Below are positions 1 through 26,935 of a stretch of DNA of 64,000 nucleotides, piece by piece. Position 1 is the stretch's first letter; every line of letters starts with the position of its first letter. The DNA comes from Streptococcus australis. Lineage in GTDB: Bacteria; Bacillota; Bacilli; Lactobacillales; Streptococcaceae. A program made the position numbers and the translations under genes. Location: the NCBI RefSeq assembly GCF_901543175.1, contig NZ_LR594040.1, positions 682,001 through 746,000 of the forward strand. Direction: 5' to 3'. The notes under the pieces were generated by a model. That model saw only the letters and a program-made list of their open reading frames with translations. It was not told the origin of the DNA and did no database searches.

Positions 1-3000
1 TCACCATGACAATGGAGCCTTGGGTGCAGAAGAGAATTATAAGGCTACTTATCGTAAATTAAAACTCTTGAAAGATATGGGGGTTAACTCTATTCGAACA
101 ACCCACAATCCAGCTAGCCCTCAGTTGCTTGATGCTGCGGCTAGTTTAGGTCTTTTGGTTCAAGAGGAAGCTTTTGATACTTGGTATGGTGGCAAGAAGA
201 CTTACGACTATGGACGGTTCTTTGATCAAGATGCAACCCATCCTGAAGCTAAGAAGGGTGAGAAGTGGTCTGATTTTGATCTTAGAACAATGGTAGAACG
301 TGATAAGAACAATCCGTCGATCGTCATGTGGTCTCTTGGAAATGAGGTAGAAGAGGCAAATGGTAGTCCTCGCTCTATCGAAACTGCTAAGCGCCTGAAG
401 GCAGTTATCAAAGCGATTGATACTGAACGTTATGTCACCATGGGTGAAAATAAATTTAGTCGTGCAGCGACAGGTGATTTCTTGAAACTTGCAGAAATCA
501 TGGATGCTGTGGGGATGAACTATGGTGAACGTTTTTATGATGCGGTTCGTAGTGCTCATCCAGACTGGCTCATTTATGGTTCTGAAACTTCTTCAGCTAC
601 TAGAACGCGTGATTCTTATTACAATCCTACTCAAATCCTTGGACATGATAACCGTCTAAATCGTCATTATGAACAATCTGACTATGGTAATGACCGTGTT
701 GGATGGGGAAGAACAGCTACTGAATCATGGACTTTTGACCGTGATCGTGCTGGCTATGCTGGACAATTTATCTGGACAGGAATTGACTATATTGGAGAAC
801 CAACTCCATGGCATAACCAAGATAATACACCTGTCAAGAGCTCTTACTTTGGTATCATCGATACGGCTGGTTTACCGAAGAATGATTTTTACCTTTACCG
901 TAGTGAATGGTATAGTGCTAAAGAAAAGCCAACTGTTCGCATTTTACCACATTGGAACTGGACTGAAGAGACCCTTAAGGATCGCAAGATGCGGGTTGAT
1001 GGAAAGGTTCCGGTTCGTACCTTCTCAAATGCTGCAAGCGTCGAATTGTTCTTAAATGGAGAGTCACTTGGTAAAAAGGAATTTACTAAGAAAACGACAG
1101 AAGACGGACGTCCATATCATGAGGGGGCTAAACCAAGTGAATTGTATCTTGAATGGCTTGTGAAATACCAACCAGGCACACTGACTGCGATTGCTCGAGA
1201 TGAAAAAGGCAACGAAATTGCGCGTGATAGTGTGACAACTGCTGGGGAGCCAGCAAGGGTTCGTCTGACTAAAGAAGAGCATGTTATCACTGCAGATGGA
1301 AAAGACCTATCCTACATCCATTACGAAATTGTTGATAGCGAAGGGAATGTGGTTCCGACAGCGAATAATCTTGTTCATTTCAATCTTCATGGTCAAGGAC
1401 AAATAGTTGGTGTGGATAATGGAGAACAAGCTAGCCGTGAGCGCTACAAAGCTCAAGCAGATGGAACATGGCAAAGACGTGCTTTCAATGGTAAAGGAGT
1501 TGTCATTGTAAAATCAACAGAAAAAGAAGGTAAATTTACTCTTTATGCAGATTCTGCTGGTTTAACTTCTGATAGCGCAACGGTCGCAACTGTGTCTGGT
1601 AAGAAAGAAAACCGTCACTTTGTAGCCTTTGCTCCTGTAAAAGCAACAACTGATGTGACTACAAATCCTGAATTGCCTCAAACAGTAACAGCTATTTATA
1701 GCGACGGTAGTGTTGAGGAAAAGACTGTAACATGGGATGTGCCAGCTGACTTGCTTACAAGCGCAGGTGAGAAAAAAGTATCTGGACGTGTAGAAGGTTT
1801 GGAAACCAAAGCTGAGGCACTTGTGAAAGTGATTGCTTTAGATAGATGGTTACCAAAAGTTGCTACAGTACCGGTTGGTACAACTGCAGCTGATTTGGAT
1901 AAAACGGTCACAGCTGTTCTGACAGATGGTAGTTTGATTGATACAGATGTTGTTTCTTGGACTTTAAAAGATCCTGCTGCTTTAACCAAGGAAGGGGGAC
2001 GTACGGAGGCTACTGGTAAATTGGTAGATGACGATCGTGAAGTAACTGCAACCTTTATCGCAAGCAGTAAGGAAACAACAAGTAGCATTACAGGACTTAC
2101 TGTTGGGGATAAAGCTCTTGAGAACTTCGAGTCTGGCAAGACTTATTACCGTGTATCCCTTCCTTACACTGGAACAATTCCAAGTGTTGGAGCTCAGACT
2201 ACTGGTTATCAAGTAACTGTTCAGCAAGCTTCTGCTGATAATGGTTATCAGGCTTCGGTCTTCTTGAGTGATCAAAAGGGTGACTTGGTTCAAACTTATT
2301 TAATTCAGTTTGTGAAGGAAGCTCCTGCCTTGAAACGTTTGGAAGTAGTTGTGGAAGGAAAAGAAACTGCTACTGAAGATCAAGTCTTAACTTATCGTGT
2401 CATTGGTAGTTATGAGGATGGTTCACAAACAGAATTCTCAGCATCAGATATTCACTTAGAAGCTAAATCATCTGATGGTGGGCATCTTGAGGTAAATGGT
2501 CAGAATCTATTACTCTATACTAAGGGAAGAGTGGCTTTGACACCTCGAATCGATAATCAAACAGAGAAAACAGAATCTGTAACTACTGAAGTGGTGATTA
2601 AAGAAAATAAAGTCAGCAAGAAGATTGTGAAACTTCATCCTGTATCTGTTTCTATAGACATTAATCAGCAACCGAATCTACCTAAAGAAGTTGGAGCAGA
2701 ATTTGATAAGGGATTACCACGCAAAGTATCTGTAACTTGGGACAAGGTAGATGAAAAAGAATTGGGGCATTATCATAGCTTTACGCTTAAAGGACGTGTA
2801 GAAGGTACAGATATTGAAGCTCAAGCGACTGTAACAGTTGAAGGATTGCAAGTTGCAGAGGAAATCAGCCTTACTCTTCCTAAGGGTGAGACAGTTCAAT
2901 TGCCAGCTAATGTGCGTGCTTACCATTCTAACGGAACAACTGTCTACAAAGATGTGGTTTGGGATCAGGTTCCAGCCAACTTTAGTCAAACTGAAGGAGT

Positions 3001-5731
3001 CTATGAAATCAATGGTCGCTTAATAGGTAGCAATTTGACCACTAAAGCCCATGTTCGAGTGTCTAGCCAAGTTGTTGCTGGAAATAATATCTCTAAACAA
3101 TGGACAGGTTCGCAATTGCCAGCTGCCATTGTATCCAATACAGGAGGAGATGACTCAGCTAATACCTTGAACGACCTGACTGTGTCAAGAACGCCAACAG
3201 ACGCTAAAAATAGATGGACTACTTGGAGAACAAATACTGATAATGACTGGGCTTCTATCTTGTTTGGTAATTCAGGAGATTTGACGAAACGTTTTGTCAA
3301 CAATTTATCAGTTGATTTCTATACTGATGGAGCAATTGGTCTTCCAAAAGAATATGTAGTTGAATATTATGTAGGTAAAGAAATTCCAGATTTACCAAGT
3401 GATGTCAGCAATGCTCAGCGTGATAGCAATCATCCATTTAATAATCCAGAAAATTGGAAAGCAGTTGAAAACTTGCATGCTCCAAGTCAGCTATCTGCAA
3501 CTCAAACAAATCATTTCACATTTGACAAGGTAGAAACTTATGCTGTTCGTATTCGTATGAAGAAAGCAGATGGAACTTCAGGTGTTGGTCTGACAGAACT
3601 AACTGTCCTTGGAAATAAGGTAGTAAGCTCTACAAGTTCAGAGATTTCTATCAGGGTAGATGGCAAGGATCTTGAACACTTTAATCCATCTAAGACTGAT
3701 TACTATATTCCTCAATCTAGCAAACAAATCACTGCAACAGCTAGCAATAATGGTTTGGTAACAGTTGTGCCTGCAACTAGTCCAAAAGGTGCAACACGTC
3801 TCATCTTAAAAGCAGAAGATGGTACGGTATTGAAAGAATATCGAATCTTCCGCAATGATGAGAGAGAAACTAGTCAACCGCTTGCTGCAGAAAATGGTGC
3901 TAAAATCTTGAATGTTGGAGACAATCTTCAACTTCCTTCAGAGGTAGACGTTTATTACCCAACTTCAACTACTTGGACTACAGAAAAACTTGCAGTGAAG
4001 TGGGATGCTATTCCTGAACATGCGACAGAGCATGAGGGAACATTTGAAGTTACCGGTCATGTCATTGGTACAAATCTAACCACTAAAATGCAGGTGACAG
4101 TTGTTTCTAAAGGCAATCAAGTCATTTCAGAAAATCCAAACAACAATGAAACTGATTCTAAAGCCTTTGCTTCGATAACGAACGATACACAAGCAGCTTC
4201 ACATGATAGAATTTTCTATATCAATGATGGAAAATACAATGAAGATGGGCGTTGGACAAACTGGACTCGTACTCCGAAAAATCAAGAAACTTCTGTCGGA
4301 CTACTCTTTAAGAAGGATGGAAAAATTACTTCTCAATCTATTGGAAAAGTAGCCATTCAGTTCTTTAAAGATAGTGGCACAGATGCCCCAGAGAAAATGG
4401 TTCTAGAAAGATATATTGGTCCTGCCTTTACAGAGCCAAGTACGATTTCTCGTTATGAAGAAAATGCTGACCATCCATTCAACAAGGCAGAAAATTGGGC
4501 ACCAATTCCTTACAAGTCTTCTGGAGAATTAGTGGCTGGTAAACCAATCGAGTTTAACTTTGATCCAGTTCAAACAACAGCTATTCGTGCGCGTATGACT
4601 CGTAAGGCTACTACTAATGGTCTAGCACTTGTAGAATTTACAGCCTACTCTGCAGGCAAGGGAGCAGAAGTCGAAACACCATCAGCGACTATTTCGATTG
4701 ATGGAAAAGCATTGGAAAACTTTGATCCAAATGTGACAGAGTACACCCTAACAACAATGGGATCCAAACCAAAAGTCACTGCGACAACTAGTGGACATGG
4801 AGTAGTCACAGTTGTGGATCATGGAAATACAAATCTTCCAACACTTGTTCGTCTTATTTCCAAAGATGGAAATCTGGTGAAAGAATATCGTTTACACTTT
4901 AAGTCTACCTTCCAAACAACACCAACAGAAGGCGTTAAGAACTTAGTTGCAGAAGCTCCAAGTTTGGAAATTGAAAAGACTCCACTTCCGTTTAAAGAAG
5001 TTGTTCGTGAAACCCCTGCGCTTGCTCAAGGTAAACGTCGTGTAGTTTCTGAAGGACAAGATGGAGAAAAAGTTGACTATATTCAAGTATCAGGAACTAC
5101 CAGAACTCTTGTTCATACTGAACAAAGAAAAGCTCAAGATCGTATTATTGAGGTAGGAGTAAAACCATCTATTTCAAATAGTAAGGGTGAGGAACCTGCG
5201 CCAGTCAACGAAGTTCCAGAATTCAAAGGCGGAGTTAACTTTGTAGAAGCAGCAGTAAACGAAGTTCCAGAATACACAGGAATTCTTGCCACTGTAGGCG
5301 ACCAAGCCGCTCCGACAGTAGAGAAGCCTGAGTTCAAGGGTGGAGTCAACTCTGTTATGGCCTTGAAACACGAACTCCCAGAGTACACAGGTCCGGTATC
5401 AACCGTAGGCGACCAACCAGCACCGACAGTAGAGAAACCTGAATTTAAGGGTGGCGTTAATGCTGTAATGGCTCTAGAACATAAACTTCCAGAGTACCGT
5501 GGTGTTCTAGCTACAGTAGGCAATCAACCAGCACCGACAGTAGAAAAACCAGAGTTTAAACTAAGTTCGGTAGAAAAATCTCAGAATCCAGAAGCACCAG
5601 TTCAAGTTGCCAAGGAAGGAAAGAGATTACCAGAAACTGGTGAAAAACAGTCAGAAACAGCTATTTTCTTGGCAAGTGTTACCTTGGCCTTGTCAGCAGC
5701 CTTATTAACTGCAAAACGCAAAGAGGATTAG
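1..5731 (+). CDS. bgaA: Surface-anchored beta-galactosidase BgaA, 3' part (5' end outside window)
   Basis: Secreted, sortase-anchored exo-beta-galactosidase that removes terminal galactose from host glycans and can act as an adhesin. The reading frame is open from base 2, so the gene is cut by the window edge; a TTG at 20 is only an internal codon. About 1909 residues are visible. The end of the GH2 catalytic barrel is present: the HHDNGALG motif at the very start, the general acid/base Glu in LGNE (344-346) and the likely nucleophile Glu in YGSET (584-586). Then come Ig-like modules, two CBM71-type galactose-binding modules (about nt 3085-3615 and 4135-4650), a G5-like domain (about 4950-5165), tandem 37-residue repeats (about 5200-5560), LPETG (5627-5641), a hydrophobic segment and a KRKED tail. 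Length and order match pneumococcal BgaA. Confidence 0.95.
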   Translation, partial: HHDNGALGAEENYKATYRKLKLLKDMGVNSIRTTHNPASPQLLDAAASLGLLVQEEAFDTWYGGKKTYDYGRFFDQDATHPEAKKGEKWSDFDLRTMVERDKNNPSIVMWSLGNEVEEANGSPRSIETAKRLKAVIKAIDTERYVTMGENKFSRAATGDFLKLAEIMDAVGMNYGERFYDAVRSAHPDWLIYGSETSSATRTRDSYYNPTQILGHDNRLNRHYEQSDYGNDRVGWGRTATESWTFDRDRAGYAGQFIWTGIDYIGEPTPWHNQDNTPVKSSYFGIIDTAGLPKNDFYLYRSEWYSAKEKPTVRILPHWNWTEETLKDRKMRVDGKVPVRTFSNAASVELFLNGESLGKKEFTKKTTEDGRPYHEGAKPSELYLEWLVKYQPGTLTAIARDEKGNEIARDSVTTAGEPARVRLTKEEHVITADGKDLSYIHYEIVDSEGNVVPTANNLVHFNLHGQGQIVGVDNGEQASRERYKAQADGTWQRRAFNGKGVVIVKSTEKEGKFTLYADSAGLTSDSATVATVSGKKENRHFVAFAPVKATTDVTTNPELPQTVTAIYSDGSVEEKTVTWDVPADLLTSAGEKKVSGRVEGLETKAEALVKVIALDRWLPKVATVPVGTTAADLDKTVTAVLTDGSLIDTDVVSWTLKDPAALTKEGGRTEATGKLVDDDREVTATFIASSKETTSSITGLTVGDKALENFESGKTYYRVSLPYTGTIPSVGAQTTGYQVTVQQASADNGYQASVFLSDQKGDLVQTYLIQFVKEAPALKRLEVVVEGKETATEDQVLTYRVIGSYEDGSQTEFSASDIHLEAKSSDGGHLEVNGQNLLLYTKGRVALTPRIDNQTEKTESVTTEVVIKENKVSKKIVKLHPVSVSIDINQQPNLPKEVGAEFDKGLPRKVSVTWDKVDEKELGHYHSFTLKGRVEGTDIEAQATVTVEGLQVAEEISLTLPKGETVQLPANVRAYHSNGTTVYKDVVWDQVPANFSQTEGVYEINGRLIGSNLTTKAHVRVSSQVVAGNNISKQWTGSQLPAAIVSNTGGDDSANTLNDLTVSRTPTDAKNRWTTWRTNTDNDWASILFGNSGDLTKRFVNNLSVDFYTDGAIGLPKEYVVEYYVGKEIPDLPSDVSNAQRDSNHPFNNPENWKAVENLHAPSQLSATQTNHFTFDKVETYAVRIRMKKADGTSGVGLTELTVLGNKVVSSTSSEISIRVDGKDLEHFNPSKTDYYIPQSSKQITATASNNGLVTVVPATSPKGATRLILKAEDGTVLKEYRIFRNDERETSQPLAAENGAKILNVGDNLQLPSEVDVYYPTSTTWTTEKLAVKWDAIPEHATEHEGTFEVTGHVIGTNLTTKMQVTVVSKGNQVISENPNNNETDSKAFASITNDTQAASHDRIFYINDGKYNEDGRWTNWTRTPKNQETSVGLLFKKDGKITSQSIGKVAIQFFKDSGTDAPEKMVLERYIGPAFTEPSTISRYEENADHPFNKAENWAPIPYKSSGELVAGKPIEFNFDPVQTTAIRARMTRKATTNGLALVEFTAYSAGKGAEVETPSATISIDGKALENFDPNVTEYTLTTMGSKPKVTATTSGHGVVTVVDHGNTNLPTLVRLISKDGNLVKEYRLHFKSTFQTTPTEGVKNLVAEAPSLEIEKTPLPFKEVVRETPALAQGKRRVVSEGQDGEKVDYIQVSGTTRTLVHTEQRKAQDRIIEVGVKPSISNSKGEEPAPVNEVPEFKGGVNFVEAAVNEVPEYTGILATVGDQAAPTVEKPEFKGGVNSVMALKHELPEYTGPVSTVGDQPAPTVEKPEFKGGVNAVMALEHKLPEYRGVLATVGNQPAPTVEKPEFKLSSVEKSQNPEAPVQVAKEGKRLPETGEKQSETAIFLASVTLALSAALLTAKRKED
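5200..5560 (+). repeat. Tandem 37-codon repeats in the BgaA wall-spanning region
   Basis: About three units of roughly 111 bp encode a pattern of type APTVEKPEFKGGVN, then VMAL, then LPEYTG, then STVGDQP. The first unit (VNEVPEFKGGVNFVEAAVNEVPEYTG) is the most diverged, the next two are near-identical. Such repeats sit between ligand-binding domains and the sortase motif in many streptococcal wall proteins and probably act as a stalk; copy number can change by recombination. Confidence 0.8.
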
Positions 5732-22398: not shown

Positions 22399-22426
22399 AA
22401 AAGAAGGAGCCAAGTGGCTCCTTTTT
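22399..22426 (-). terminator. Terminator of the apbE/flavin reductase operon
   Basis: GGAGCCA-AG-TGGCTCC stem (22406-22421) flanked by A-rich and T-rich tracts on both sides, so it can work on either strand; it ends the leftward operon. Confidence 0.85.
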
Positions 22427-22432
22427 GATTTC

Positions 22433-23677
22433 TTAGTTGCTCGCACCAGAAGTAGCGTCAGCGCCGCCTCCGTGACCACCATCGCCTCCAGCATCAGAAG
22501 CACCAGAAGTAGCATCAGCGTCTCCATGACCTCCAGCAGCAGGAGCGAATGGCCCACTACCACCTACCAAACGTTGACCAGTTTCTTGTAGGTACCAGTC
22601 AAGCCATGGTTGGAAGTTAAAGACGATTTCATTGATACCAGCGTATGATCCATCAGGATAGTACATAGCTTGGTAGTTGTGAGTGTTGATAACACCTGCA
22701 GGCGAACCTGGAACGATCGTACGGACGTATTCTTGGTTTCCGTTGCGAAGTGTTCCGATAACCCACTCTACATTCTTCATGCGTGCTGGCGGAAGAGAAG
22801 CATGCACAGTTGACATACGGCTACCTGATTGAGGTGGTACACGTTTAGCAAACATGGTGTCTGGATCTTGGTGAGCGTTGTTGTAGTAGAGGAATTGGTT
22901 GTTGTCATCAGCATATGTCAATTCAAATGGCATAGCTTTCAAGAACATATCGATTTGGTTAACTGTAAGGATACCATGGTCCAATTTGACATAGGTATCA
23001 CCAGAAACAGCACCAGTGATTGCTGCAACTTTTTCTACCCATTCTGGATCGTCAGGGTCAACTTCTGTGATGGTTGTAGCAATTGGTTTTCCACAATCCA
23101 AGTCTTCTGGTTCGATTGGTTTTGGTTTTTTCAATTTTGAAACGACTCCTACGTATTTAACAAAGTTATCTAAGCAAGTTTCAAGGAATTTAACAGTTCC
23201 TTCGTTGGTGATGTTTCCATTGTTATCAAAAGCTTCTTTGGCTTTACCAAGAAGGAATTCATTTCCTGGAAGTGTGTAGGCGTTGACACCTGGAGCGTCT
23301 AGGATCTTACGAAGGTGAACTTGGGCACGTGAAGTTCCTTGGTCGTAGTATGATGCTCCCACAATCATAACAGGTTTGTTTTCAAATGGATGAACTTCGT
23401 ATGAAAGCCATTCAAGCACAGATTTGAGAGAAGCTGAGATAGTGTGGTTGTGCTCAGGAGTCGCGATAATGACACCATCAGCACGTGTAATCTTGTTATA
23501 CAAGAAGCGCAATTGGAAACTTTCGTCCCATTTTTCGTCTTGGTTAAACATTGGAACTTCGTCGATTTCAAGAACTTCTAATTCAAATTTGAATTTGAAA
23601 TTGCGACGGATAAATTCCAAGAGTTTGCGGTTATATGATTGATCGTAGTTTGATCCAACAAGTCCAACAAATTTCAT
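22433..23677 (-). CDS. NADPH-dependent FMN reductase with PAS-like domain and twin flavinylation-motif tail
   Basis: 414 residues in three parts. Residues 1 to about 185 form a flavodoxin-like NADPH-dependent FMN reductase domain (GLVGSN at the start, TPEHNHTISASLKSVLEWL for flavin binding). Residues about 240-365 resemble the PAS-like C-terminal domain of DUF438 proteins (PFELTYADDNNQ, then HASLPPARMKNVEWVIGTLRNG). Residues 375-414 are a Gly/Ala/Asp-rich tail with two copies of DATSGAS (residues 388-394 and 407-413). DATSGAS fits the motif D-x-x-[ST]-[GS]-A-[ST] that ApbE modifies with covalent FMN on the last Ser/Thr (S394, S413). No signal peptide. apbE is in the same operon. The covalent modification is an inference. 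Confidence 0.88.
   Translation of the reverse strand: MKFVGLVGSNYDQSYNRKLLEFIRRNFKFKFELEVLEIDEVPMFNQDEKWDESFQLRFLYNKITRADGVIIATPEHNHTISASLKSVLEWLSYEVHPFENKPVMIVGASYYDQGTSRAQVHLRKILDAPGVNAYTLPGNEFLLGKAKEAFDNNGNITNEGTVKFLETCLDNFVKYVGVVSKLKKPKPIEPEDLDCGKPIATTITEVDPDDPEWVEKVAAITGAVSGDTYVKLDHGILTVNQIDMFLKAMPFELTYADDNNQFLYYNNAHQDPDTMFAKRVPPQSGSRMSTVHASLPPARMKNVEWVIGTLRNGNQEYVRTIVPGSPAGVINTHNYQAMYYPDGSYAGINEIVFNFQPWLDWYLQETGQRLVGGSGPFAPAAGGHGDADATSGASDAGGDGGHGGGADATSGASN
22439..22459 (-). other. Distal ApbE-type flavinylation motif DATSGAS
   Basis: Codons for residues 407-413 of the FMN reductase, one codon before the stop preceded only by Asn. S413 would be the FMN acceptor if modified. Confidence 0.6.
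22496..22516 (-). other. Proximal ApbE-type flavinylation motif DATSGAS
   Basis: Codons for residues 388-394; identical in protein sequence to the distal copy but with different codons (GCT/TCT against GCG/AGC at the end), separated by a 12-residue Gly-rich linker. Confidence 0.6.
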
Positions 23678-23694
23678 TCTTTCGGTCTCCTATC

Positions 23695-24300
23695 TTACAA
23701 ATTTTCCCAGTCGAATTCTTCAGCATCTTTGCGAAGCAATTCTTGTGCATTGCGCAATTTCTCAGTAATCTTCACAAAGATACGGAAGTCATCAAAGATG
23801 GCATCCAATTTCTTGATAACATCAAGGTCAACCAAGTCTCCACTTGGGTTAAATGCTTGAAGAGAGTGAGAAAGCAAGAATTCATCTGGTAGAACATTTG
23901 CCTTAATTTCAGGAGCGTTCAAGATTTGACGAAGTTGCAGTTGGGCACGAGATGAACCAAGAGTACCGTAAGAAGCACCAGTGATCATGATTGGTTTGTT
24001 CAAAAGTGGGTAGATACCATAGGATAGCCAAGCAAGAGCGCTCATCAAAACTGCAGGAATAGAGTGGTCGTACTCAGGAGTACCGATAATGACACCATCA
24101 GCTGCTTCAATTTTAGCAGCAATTTCAAGAATTTCAGCAGGAAGAAGTTTGTCTGCTGGTTTGTTGAAAACAGGGATGTCTTTGATTTCAACGAGTTCAA
24201 TCTCAGCCTTATCGGCGAAGTGTTTTTGCATGTATTGGAGCAATTGGCGGTTTGTAGAACGTTTAGAGTTCGTTCCAACAATGGCAATAAGTTTTAGCAT
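23695..24300 (-). CDS. NADPH-dependent FMN reductase, single-domain
   Basis: 201-residue flavodoxin-like flavin reductase, paralogous to the N-terminal domain of the next gene (shared GTPEYDHSIPAVLMSALAWLSYG and GASYGTLGSSRAQLQLRQIL). It uses NAD(P)H to reduce FMN or another acceptor in the cytosol. It lacks the PAS-like domain and the flavinylation tail. Ribosome-binding site GAAAGGAAA. Gap of 17 bases to the downstream reductase and 33 bases from apbE, so all three are one operon; the pair may form a mixed oligomer. Confidence 0.9.
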   Translation of the reverse strand: MLKLIAIVGTNSKRSTNRQLLQYMQKHFADKAEIELVEIKDIPVFNKPADKLLPAEILEIAAKIEAADGVIIGTPEYDHSIPAVLMSALAWLSYGIYPLLNKPIMITGASYGTLGSSRAQLQLRQILNAPEIKANVLPDEFLLSHSLQAFNPSGDLVDLDVIKKLDAIFDDFRIFVKITEKLRNAQELLRKDAEEFDWENL

Positions 24301-24333
24301 GAGATTTCCTTTCTCTTTTTACATAATACAAAT

Positions 24334-25248
24334 TTAAAGGCCTGAAGAACAAGTAAGGTTCCCCTCTTTGTCGATGAGGATGGCTTCGATACCATCTAAA
24401 CTTTCGACTTGCCAGAGGATAGAAGCGCTACGTTCTCCGAATAGGCGGGTTGTCCAAATCTCACCATCGACAGATTTATCTGAGATAATCGTTAGGCTAG
24501 CGAGGTCTGTTTCGACAGGAAATCCTGTCTCACTATCAAAGATATGGTGATAGTCTTTTCCATCTACTGTCAGGTGGCGTTCATAGATACCTGAAGTGAC
24601 AACGGATTTGTTAGACGCAGGAATGGTTAGGAGATGATTGCCACGAGGATTTTGCGGATCTTGAATCCCAATCTGCCAGGCTTTCCCTTCTTTAGCTTGG
24701 TTATTCCCGATGGTGAGGATATTTCCTCCGAGATTGATCAAGGCAGAGGTGACACCGTGTGCTTTTAAATACTGGGAAACCTTATCTGCACTATAGCCTT
24801 TGGCTAAGCAACCTAGATCAAGCTTCATTCCTTTCTTCTCTAAAAAAACAGTAGAGCTAGTCGGATCCAACTTGATAAAATGCGGGTCAACTAGGGGCAA
24901 GACAGCTTCGATTTCGTTTAACTCTGGAAGTCGTGCATCTGCAAATCCGATTCGCCAGGTTTGAATCAAGGGACCGATACTGATATTTAGATGGCTAGAG
25001 GGAGCTAGGCTGTGCTCTAGTCCAAGAGCAATCAGTTCAAATAGGTCAGGATGAACCTTAACAGGTGCGATTCCAGCCTGGTAGTTGATTTCCATCAGTT
25101 CGGATTCTTGACTATTGGCGTTGAAGCGGTATTCGAGCTCCTTGAGCAAGTCAAAAGCGCCCTGAAGCAGGATTTCTGCCCGCTCATCTACTAATGAAAT
25201 CGTGATAGTTGTTCCCATTAGCCGTTCAGAACGTGAACGAAGAGGCAA
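24334..25248 (-). CDS. apbE: ApbE-family FAD:protein FMN transferase, cytosolic
   Basis: Enzyme that transfers FMN from FAD onto Ser/Thr of target proteins, magnesium-dependent. 304 residues. ApbE signatures are MGTTITISL, LDLGCLAKGYSADK, INLGGNI, VTSGIYER and HHIFDSETGFP. It has no lipobox or signal peptide, unlike the exported ApbE of extracellular electron transfer loci, so its targets should be cytosolic. The start is a TTG at 25248, chosen because AAAGGAG lies 8 bases upstream; an ATG at 25218 is the alternative. It is the first gene of the operon containing the putative target. Confidence 0.93.
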   Translation of the reverse strand: MPLRSRSERLMGTTITISLVDERAEILLQGAFDLLKELEYRFNANSQESELMEINYQAGIAPVKVHPDLFELIALGLEHSLAPSSHLNISIGPLIQTWRIGFADARLPELNEIEAVLPLVDPHFIKLDPTSSTVFLEKKGMKLDLGCLAKGYSADKVSQYLKAHGVTSALINLGGNILTIGNNQAKEGKAWQIGIQDPQNPRGNHLLTIPASNKSVVTSGIYERHLTVDGKDYHHIFDSETGFPVETDLASLTIISDKSVDGEIWTTRLFGERSASILWQVESLDGIEAILIDKEGNLTCSSGL

Positions 25249-25338
25249 GCTACCAACTCCTTTCTACTTCATAGGAAATATTCAAGTTAGGTTAAATTTA
25301 TGAGAATTGAACCCCTTACATTTTCTTTCCATGTTTCT

Positions 25339-25555: not shown

Positions 25556-26935
25556 ATGAGTAAAATCGTTGTAGTTGGTGCTAACCACGCTGGTACAGCA
25601 TGTATCAATACTATGTTGGACAACTTTGGACATGAAAATGAAATCGTTGTATTTGACCAAAACTCAAATATTTCATTCCTTGGTTGTGGAATGGCGCTTT
25701 GGATCGGGGAACAAATTGATGGTCCAGAAGGTCTCTTCTACTCTGATAAAGAAAAATTGGAAGCAAAGGGTGCAAAAGTTTACATGAACTCACCTGTTCT
25801 TTCAATCGACTATGACAATAAAGTTGTGACTGCAGAAGTTGAAGGTCAAGAACACAAAGAGTCTTACGACAAATTGATCTTTGCGACTGGTTCAACTCCA
25901 ATCTTGCCTCCAATCGAAGGTGTTGAAATCGTTAAGGGCAACCGTGAGTTCAAAGCAACACTTGAAAATGTTCAATTTGTTAAGTTGTACCAAAACGCAG
26001 AAGAAGTCATCGAAAAACTTGCTGACAAGAGCAAACACCTTGAACGCATCGCTGTAGTTGGTGGTGGTTACATCGGTGTTGAACTTGCTGAAGCTTTCGA
26101 ACGTCTTGGAAAAGAAGTTGTCCTTGTTGATATCGTAGACACTGTTTTGAACGGCTACTACGACAAAGACTTCACTCAAATGATGGCTAAGAACTTGGAA
26201 GACAACAACATCCGCTTGGCACTTGGTCAAACAGTAAAAGCTATCCAAGGTGATGGTAAAGTTGAACGCTTGGTAACAGACAAAGAAACATTTGATGTGG
26301 ATATGGTTGTTCTTGCTGTTGGTTTCCGTCCAAATACAGCTCTTGCTGATGGTAAGATTGAACTATTCCGCAACGGTGCCTTCCTTGTTGACAAGAAACA
26401 AGAGACATCAATTCCAGGTGTTTATGCAGTAGGTGACTGTGCGACTGTTTATGACAACGCTCGTAAAGACACTAGCTACATCGCGCTTGCTTCAAACGCT
26501 GTTCGTACTGGTATCGTTGGTGCTTACAATGCTTGTGGACATGAATTGGAAGGAATTGGTGTACAAGGATCAAACGGTATCTCAATCTACGGTCTTCACA
26601 TGGTTTCAACTGGTTTGACTCTTGAAAAAGCTAAAGCTGCTGGTTACAACGCAACTGAAACAGGCTTTAACGACCTTCAAAAACCAGAATTTATGAAGCA
26701 TGACAACCATGAAGTTGCCATCAAGATTGTTTTTGACAAAGACAGCCGCGAAATTCTTGGCGCTCAAATGGTATCACGTGATTCAGCTATCAGTATGGGA
26801 ATCCACATGTTCTCACTTGCTATCCAAGAACATGTGACAATTGACAAGTTGGCTCTGACAGACCTGTTCTTCTTGCCACACTTTAACAAACCATACAACT
26901 ACATCACAATGGCTGCTCTTACAGCTGAAAAATAA
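25556..26935 (+). CDS. nox: Water-forming NADH oxidase
   Basis: FAD flavoprotein that reduces oxygen to water with NADH, important for aerobic NAD+ regeneration in streptococci. 459 residues, the usual length. N-terminal dinucleotide-binding motif [11 protein letters not shown], redox-active C44 in SFLGCGM (as in H2O-forming Nox), second nucleotide fold [15 protein letters not shown], and FAD-binding [19 protein letters not shown] ribosome-binding site. Divergent from the apbE operon; strong codon bias suggests high expression. Ends in a strong terminator. Confidence 0.97.

Follow-up and report, generated by a model that had tools for sequence, protein, structure and literature searches.

Among the closest described relatives of the operon reported here are two flavin reductase systems of lactic acid bacteria. 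In Lactobacillus johnsonii, neither FRedA nor FRedB binds FMN as a monomer, and the two form a heterodimer with two FMN sites that binds FMN weakly (KD 2 uM) and oxidizes NADH with FMN (Km 20 uM) or FAD, forming H2O2 (Valladares 2015, PMC4500961). L. johnsonii no longer forms H2O2 once the FRed genes are interrupted or deleted, a result of Hertzberger 2014 cited in PMC4500961. FRedA is better recovered in the presence of a separate PAS protein, LjPAS, which slows FRedA/B assembly in vitro and was published as a regulator; the Figure 1 legend of the same paper names two proteins of other species, Lp2732 and EF1227, in which an LjPAS homologue is fused to FMN_red. The second system is a class of FMN_red proteins, studied in Lactococcus and found mostly in Firmicutes, that have C-terminal extensions with one or two flavinylation motifs and are encoded near apbE (Huang, Meheust, Barquera and Light 2024, mSystems, PMC11334425; preprint PMC10979944). 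Covalent FMN was shown on two Lactococcus FMN_red proteins by co-expression in E. coli with Ser-to-Ala controls (PMC10979944/PMC11334425). The motif recognized by ApbE, the FAD:protein FMN transferase, is D-x-x-[S/T]-G-A-[S/T] with FMN attached to the last residue (PMC12052999). Here we analyze an apbE operon in a 64,000-nucleotide stretch of Streptococcus australis DNA (contig NZ_LR594040.1, positions 682,001 to 746,000; "the window" below) and compare it with both systems.

The operon and its published relatives

An open reading frame (ORF) and Pfam scan of the window, which is part of a 1.93-Mb Streptococcus genome, gave three consecutive minus-strand genes: apbE, a gene encoding a 201-residue FMN_red protein and a gene encoding a 414-residue protein. 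The 414-residue protein consists of an FMN_red domain, a PAS_10 domain and a tail that carries two flavinylation motifs (Table 1). We favor, at a probability of roughly 0.6, the reading that the operon encodes a cytosolic two-subunit NADH:flavin oxidoreductase in which FMNs attached by ApbE to the tail serve as built-in electron carriers. The genes, the motifs and their conservation, the partner subunit and the association with ApbE were established here, whereas covalent FMN (Lactococcus) and the heterodimer, NADH oxidation and H2O2 (L. johnsonii) come from relatives.

A sequence-only reading of this DNA had already placed DATSGAS twice in the 414-residue protein, and the placement proved exact. 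The domain it called PAS-like is recognized by Pfam as PAS_10, which is also present in DUF438-hemerythrin-PAS_10 proteins. That reading described the operon as apbE plus the gene of the 414-residue protein. Both are present, but the second FMN_red gene was overlooked. Pfam gave no match to PF04205 (FMN_bind) in the 414-residue protein at E-values up to 1 and found the FAD_binding_2 reductase domain in none of the three operon proteins. The best named matches of the 414-residue protein are those of S. oralis, and the top-scoring solved relative of the window ApbE is 7esa, an FAD:protein FMN transferase.

The system resembles FRedA/FRedB in its two adjacent FMN_red genes, which in L. johnsonii form an NADH:FMN oxidoreductase, and in its PAS partner, which is fused in some species. 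LjPAS was read as a regulator and flavinylation was not mentioned, whereas the fused PAS proteins and probable stand-alone homologues considered here bear flavinylation motifs. With the Lactococcus class the 414-residue protein shares the FMN_red domain, the motif-bearing C-terminal extension and a nearby apbE. In contrast, the Lactococcus proteins were modelled as a homodimer, the passages of Huang et al. consulted mention neither a partner subunit nor H2O2, and counts of the terms PAS domain and Streptococcus in their text were zero. A group of family-mates, probably from Lactococcus (L277-L289 and L294), consists of FMN_red proteins of 198-337 residues, all of which except L280 have one to four motifs in the extension. 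No PAS domain was found by Pfam in the two of these that were scanned. Several of these proteins have a Trp-Trp-Ile-Glu stretch in the C-terminal extension.

Given the Lactococcus proteins, the class was already known and the 414-residue protein is thus a PAS-containing, heterodimer-type variant. A search of the open-access literature, with subscription papers and supplements outside its reach, found nothing closer that links these enzymes with flavinylation. The earlier statement that no function was known for this protein in streptococci is not supported as it stands, as the lactobacillar homologues are an H2O2-forming NADH:FMN reductase (PMC4500961) and the flavinylated FMN_red class was described in 2024. 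Two other leads were dropped: one pneumococcal paper lists apbE and azr_1 with 1.5-fold changes, which was uninformative, and a cAD1-ApbE paper was set aside because it concerns other proteins.

Tail motifs and their association with ApbE

Full-length relatives of the 414-residue protein were defined as ATG-started ORFs whose alignment begins no later than residue 5 and ends no earlier than residue 355; 148 of these were distinct. Seven further ORFs that reach the PAS domain were left out, namely the shortened, motif-free fused protein L202 and six PAS proteins that stand alone and have two or three motifs each. A relaxed form of the motif was found in the tail of 147 of the 148 full-length proteins and the strict form in 142; the window protein has two strict copies. 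At least two motifs are present in 137 relatives and at least three in 28. Relaxed motifs number 320 in the tails, whereas shuffling each tail would give 2.2, and none occurs in the remainder of these proteins; as the relatives share descent, these counts are not counts of independent events. In 140 of 147 relatives the last motif ends 1-4 residues before the C-terminus. The most motifs seen, seven by the relaxed pattern, are those of the relative at L226:5747-7351. The 737-residue ORF of S. gordonii (L162) was rejected as a C-terminal fusion, its extension being a run of N.

The 111 proteins scored for conservation share 75% identity or more with that of the window, those longer than 430 residues being excluded. 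Motif residues scored 0.97-0.98, the core 0.92 and the linkers 0.63, and Ser394 and Ser413 both scored 1.00 after rounding. The linkers are Ala/Gly-rich and acceptor-to-acceptor spacing is mostly 15-20 residues. Linkers that drift, motifs that are stable and a copy number that varies by motif unit form the pattern expected from selection for a modification site. The sequence-only reading had invoked codon divergence between the two DATSGAS copies as a sign of selection at the protein level. The copies do differ at three of seven codons, including that of the acceptor serine (TCT versus AGC), but taken alone this is weak evidence for such selection. The window genome has 39 matches to the motif pattern. 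Among the 30 that were read, those with the right residues in open frames of more than 100 residues were the two motifs described here and a third within a predicted lipoprotein of some 650 residues; one of the remaining nine is the FMN_bind motif of L079, discussed below.

The distribution of ApbE was determined in 197 Streptococcus genomes, with orthologues called from E-values and six-frame matches. A match to the 414-residue protein (E below 1e-100) was found in 160 genomes (places are listed for 150, the other ten being called by E-value only), and ApbE is present in every one of them. FMN_bind proteins, the classical targets of ApbE, occur in 84 of the 197, and 102 genomes have ApbE and the 414-residue match without any FMN_bind protein. 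The tail is therefore the only recognizable ApbE substrate in those 102. All five ApbE-negative genomes lack both FMN_bind and an intact orthologue, and four of them lack the protein altogether. In the fifth (G160, locus L306) the gene has an internal stop, and the 10-kb locus contains no recognizable apbE or separate 201-residue gene. Two of the 160 matches (G064 and G077) look interrupted; without them the figures become 158 of 158 with ApbE and 101 without FMN_bind. In G064 there is a stop near the N-terminus and the otherwise open 394-residue frame keeps both motifs. In G077 (L309) and L202, a contig of the S. infantis SK970 type, the frame is lost just before the tail, which may be a draft-assembly error or real decay; the ApbE of G077 is in two matches.

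The association extends beyond the genus. In an order-level sample of 295 genomes (46 of them Streptococcus), ApbE was present outside Streptococcus in 83 of 83 genomes having an orthologue versus 136 of 166 others (Fisher p 2e-6, ignoring relatedness), and at least two ApbE copies were present in 65 of 83 versus 29 of 166 (p 6e-21, likewise ignoring relatedness). In a class-level sample of 299 genomes, all full-length matches among those listed fall inside the order. At the loci having at least 1900 nt of upstream DNA, apbE was found beside the gene in 74 of 101; in the window it belongs to the same operon.

The earlier claim that this ApbE has neither signal peptide nor lipobox held, as the TTG start leaves no room for either. 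Operon-type ApbE frames numbered 184 distinct sequences, of which 55 were cut by locus ends. None of the 129 having the N-terminus within the fetched DNA had a lipobox or a hydrophobic N-terminal stretch by a simple hydropathy and lipobox test (not SignalP). Twelve second ApbE copies were used as controls: ten scored positive in the first 60 residues, the eleventh did so on the whole leader and the twelfth is a frame with stops. An extra ApbE copy thus fits a division of labor between leaderless operon-type enzymes and second copies having a leader. With regard to the catalytic Ser/Arg/His, the cytosolic-type enzymes keep VTSGIYER and HH. The ApbE of Klebsiella pneumoniae that modifies a fumarate reductase (PMC12052999) is likewise cytosolic and without a signal peptide, although its target belongs to a different family.

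A contrary explanation is that ApbE serves only FMN_bind proteins and that the tail repeats are structural. One FMN_bind protein is indeed encoded in the window genome, and the support for covalent flavin on the 414-residue protein is sequence-based, a point that also counts against the reading we favor. However, 102 Streptococcus genomes have ApbE and the 414-residue match without FMN_bind, conservation is concentrated on the motifs and the homologous Lactococcus tails were flavinylated experimentally (PMC10979944/PMC11334425), such that an unmodified tail is close to refuted. Conservation, ApbE association and the Lactococcus precedent together strongly support what the sequence-only reading pictured, namely an FMN_red-PAS protein that is soluble and receives FMN from a cytosolic ApbE on up to two serines of its tail. 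Covalent attachment of FMN to this particular protein is thus predicted with high confidence.

Probable partner subunit, predicted tail flavins and possible electron acceptors

Immediately upstream of the 414-residue-type gene there is a 201-residue-type FMN_red gene in 146 of the 148 cases; in the other two, the choice of start codon apparently makes the ORF run into the partner gene. By analogy with FRedA/FRedB, the 201- and 414-residue proteins probably form a heterodimer. NADH is the likely electron donor.

In the favored reading, the 201-residue protein and the N-terminal domain of the 414-residue protein would make up an NADH-oxidizing FMN_red core, and the signal-less ApbE of the operon would move FMN from FAD onto Ser394 and Ser413 of the flexible Gly/Ala-rich tail. 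NADH would reduce flavin within the FMN_red dimer, and the FMNs tethered to the tail (about 40 residues) would dock at the core as the enzyme's own substrates and accept electrons, replacing the free FMN used by the lactobacillar enzyme in vitro. The tail flavins would then pass their electrons to O2, with H2O2 as product, or to some other acceptor in the cytosol, which the PAS domain might recruit. Several covalent FMNs per polypeptide joined by flexible linkers are also found in SaFMN3 and CbFMN4, and reduced SaFMN3 reacts with O2 (PMC10339131). In those proteins, described as secreted, each flavin sits in a folded FMN_bind domain, whereas here the motifs are bare, in a tail of a protein without a signal peptide.

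Stand-alone PAS proteins bear on the role of the tail. They were found in 12 of 13 genomes of one genus, probably acidophilus-group lactobacilli, and are 35-39% identical to the 414-residue protein over residues ~190-395. Seven were read: four have two or three motifs, L222 has three, L220 has two or three by pattern and the shortened L223 has one. In all eight genomes of this group that were searched, no more than about 2 kb separates apbE from the FRed pair, and no flavinylation motif was found in the FRed proteins read. The genes of the motif-bearing stand-alone PAS proteins (L133-L136, L218 and L220-L223) do not adjoin the FRed-apbE cluster. LjPAS itself would, as inferred from these probable homologues, be flavinylated.

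The tethered FMNs might instead be held in the two FMN_red sites of the heterodimer for cofactor retention, the tether preventing their dissociation, and not act as carriers; Huang et al. interpret the Lactococcus proteins in this way. Their model places the tail near the flavin site (PMC10979944), the FRedA/B dimer binds FMN weakly and has two sites for it, and two is also the motif number of most streptococcal tails. Nevertheless, we consider retention rather unlikely: tails having three, four or seven motifs outnumber the two sites, acidophilus-type genomes have the motifs on a separate PAS protein and a tether should matter less in the cytosol, from which flavin does not escape. The first two of these points favor carriers, although on the mobility of the tail flavins itself our judgment is evenly balanced.

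PAS domains are usually sensors. The tail could be regulatory, with the PAS domain sensing the state or occupancy of the tail flavins and gating the reductase, and the slowing of FRedA/B assembly by LjPAS in vitro agrees with such a switch (PMC4500961). However, the LjPAS preparation of that study was probably unflavinylated, because the strains in its table carry no ApbE and the paper mentions no covalent flavin; the terms ApbE, flavinyl- and covalent are absent from the main text. Moreover, up to seven flavins would be superfluous for a sensor, and we regard the switch as distinctly improbable.

A paralogous operon outside the window (L079:5851-8896, G000:C1) encodes a 202-residue FMN_red protein and an 803-residue FMN_red-FMN_bind-FAD_binding_2 protein having one DAVSGAS. 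The FMN_red domain of the latter is 53% identical to that of the 414-residue protein. This flavocytochrome c/fumarate-reductase-like protein is the second predicted substrate of the genome's only ApbE. A small FMN_red protein with a large FMN_red-headed partner is thus a recurring plan and, judged by domain content, in the 414-residue protein the PAS domain and motif-bearing tail stand in place of the FMN_bind and reductase domains of the paralogue. The hydroxycinnamate reductase HcrAB of L. plantarum is similar in pairing a small FMN_red-type protein, HcrA, with HcrB, a large flavoprotein that requires NADH and FMN (PMC10295242). It differs in that the operon described here has a PAS domain and tail but no reductase domain, the FMN_red-FMN_bind-FAD_binding_2 protein being encoded elsewhere (L079).

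An alternative is that the tail flavins feed a dedicated low-oxygen acceptor, either an organic substrate or a PAS-recruited protein, with the H2O2 of the relatives as a side reaction. The L079 pair has the same small-subunit logic and its 803-residue enzyme presumably works in this way, HcrAB has been described in similar terms (PMC10295242) and the LjPAS transcript is higher without aeration (Results, PMC4500961). Yet the operon encodes no acceptor domain and FRed deletion abolishes H2O2 in L. johnsonii, and a dedicated anaerobic reductase seems unlikely to us. O2 as the main natural acceptor is itself doubtful: it has biochemical precedent, but the aeration response of LjPAS leaves room for a low-oxygen acceptor.

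The sequence-only reading had named loss of the motif serines in orthologues that keep apbE as grounds for refutation. By this check 147 of 148 full-length proteins, which retain the motif, agree with the reading. Several observations weigh against the carrier reading as a whole. The one exception among the full-length proteins, L094, has only degenerate repeats (four copies) although its genome (G241) has ApbE. The shortened L202 (S. infantis SK970) stops before the tail and has no motif. The number of motifs ranges from one to seven by the relaxed pattern, so there is no fixed stoichiometry. Six of the 197 Streptococcus genomes keep ApbE without the 414-residue protein and without a recognized FMN_bind protein. 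At 27 of the 101 loci with at least 1900 nt upstream apbE was not found, although for 23 of them ApbE is encoded elsewhere in the genome (the remaining four were outside that check). The 3-fold fall of the LjPAS transcript on aeration, as given in the Results of PMC4500961 (the abstract words it the opposite way), fits a low-oxygen role better than O2 reduction. Finally, cytosolic ApbEs mostly have DGEIWTT, with Glu, where the secreted copies have DGDALST or close variants, with Asp; a few depart further. We take this Glu/Asp position to be a probable metal ligand. DGEIWTT is possibly diagnostic for the cytosolic subfamily.

Features of the window and meaning of the operon

The coordinates of the operon are collected in Table 1. 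Terminator-like sites are more frequent in the region (9 found versus 3.0 expected). The gene for an H2O-forming NADH oxidase (nox, 25556-26935) is divergent from apbE and occurs in 42 of the 98 loci whose upstream DNA is long enough; given this local occurrence it was assigned no functional weight. At 20-5731 lies part of the coding region for a large beta-galactosidase-like surface protein, which has SIALI-17 repeats and matches GalB from profile position 382 onward; the window edge probably truncates it.

Table 1 Operon features by position in the window
Feature	Position	Strand	Basis
apbE, cytosolic-type FAD:protein FMN transferase, 304 aa, TTG start	24334..25248	-	PF02424, E 2e-75
AAAGGAG, likely ribosome-binding site of apbE, 8 nt before TTG	25257..25263	-	sequence
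FMN_red subunit, 201 aa, putative partner (FRedA/FRedB-like pair)	23695..24300	-	ORF, Pfam, neighborhood
FMN_red-PAS_10-tail protein, 414 aa	22433..23677	-	ORF, Pfam
FMN_red domain (PF03358), residues 1-147 of the 414-aa protein	23237..23677	-	Pfam boundaries, E 1.9e-33
PAS_10 domain, residues 242-355 of the 414-aa protein	22613..22954	-	Pfam, E 6e-21
Flavinylation motif 1, DATSGAS 388-394, predicted acceptor Ser394	22496..22516	-	pattern, conservation
Flavinylation motif 2, DATSGAS 407-413, predicted acceptor Ser413	22439..22459	-	pattern, conservation
Terminator-like hairpin, both strands, between convergent DUF896 gene and operon	22401..22426	.	hairpin scan

What is new is the PAS-containing heterodimer type, its spread through the streptococci, the one to seven motifs per tail and the presence of motifs on probable stand-alone LjPAS homologues. 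It is conceivable, and we offer it tentatively, that work on the NADH flavin reductases held responsible for H2O2 in lactic acid bacteria was done in the absence of their true electron carrier. That carrier would be the PAS partner, a separate protein in L. johnsonii and part of a fusion in streptococci, enterococci and other bacteria: a cytosolic swinging arm, like lipoyl arms in its logic, with one to seven FMNs attached by ApbE to a disordered tail. Free FMN would have substituted for these flavins in the published assays.

In about half of the sampled Streptococcus genomes (102 of 197) no ApbE substrate is recognizable other than a cytosolic oxidoreductase whose motifs stand bare in a low-complexity tail. 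The published FRedA/B-LjPAS system becomes re-testable in its modified form, and the finding may alter views on how lactic acid bacteria reoxidize NADH, handle oxygen and form peroxide.

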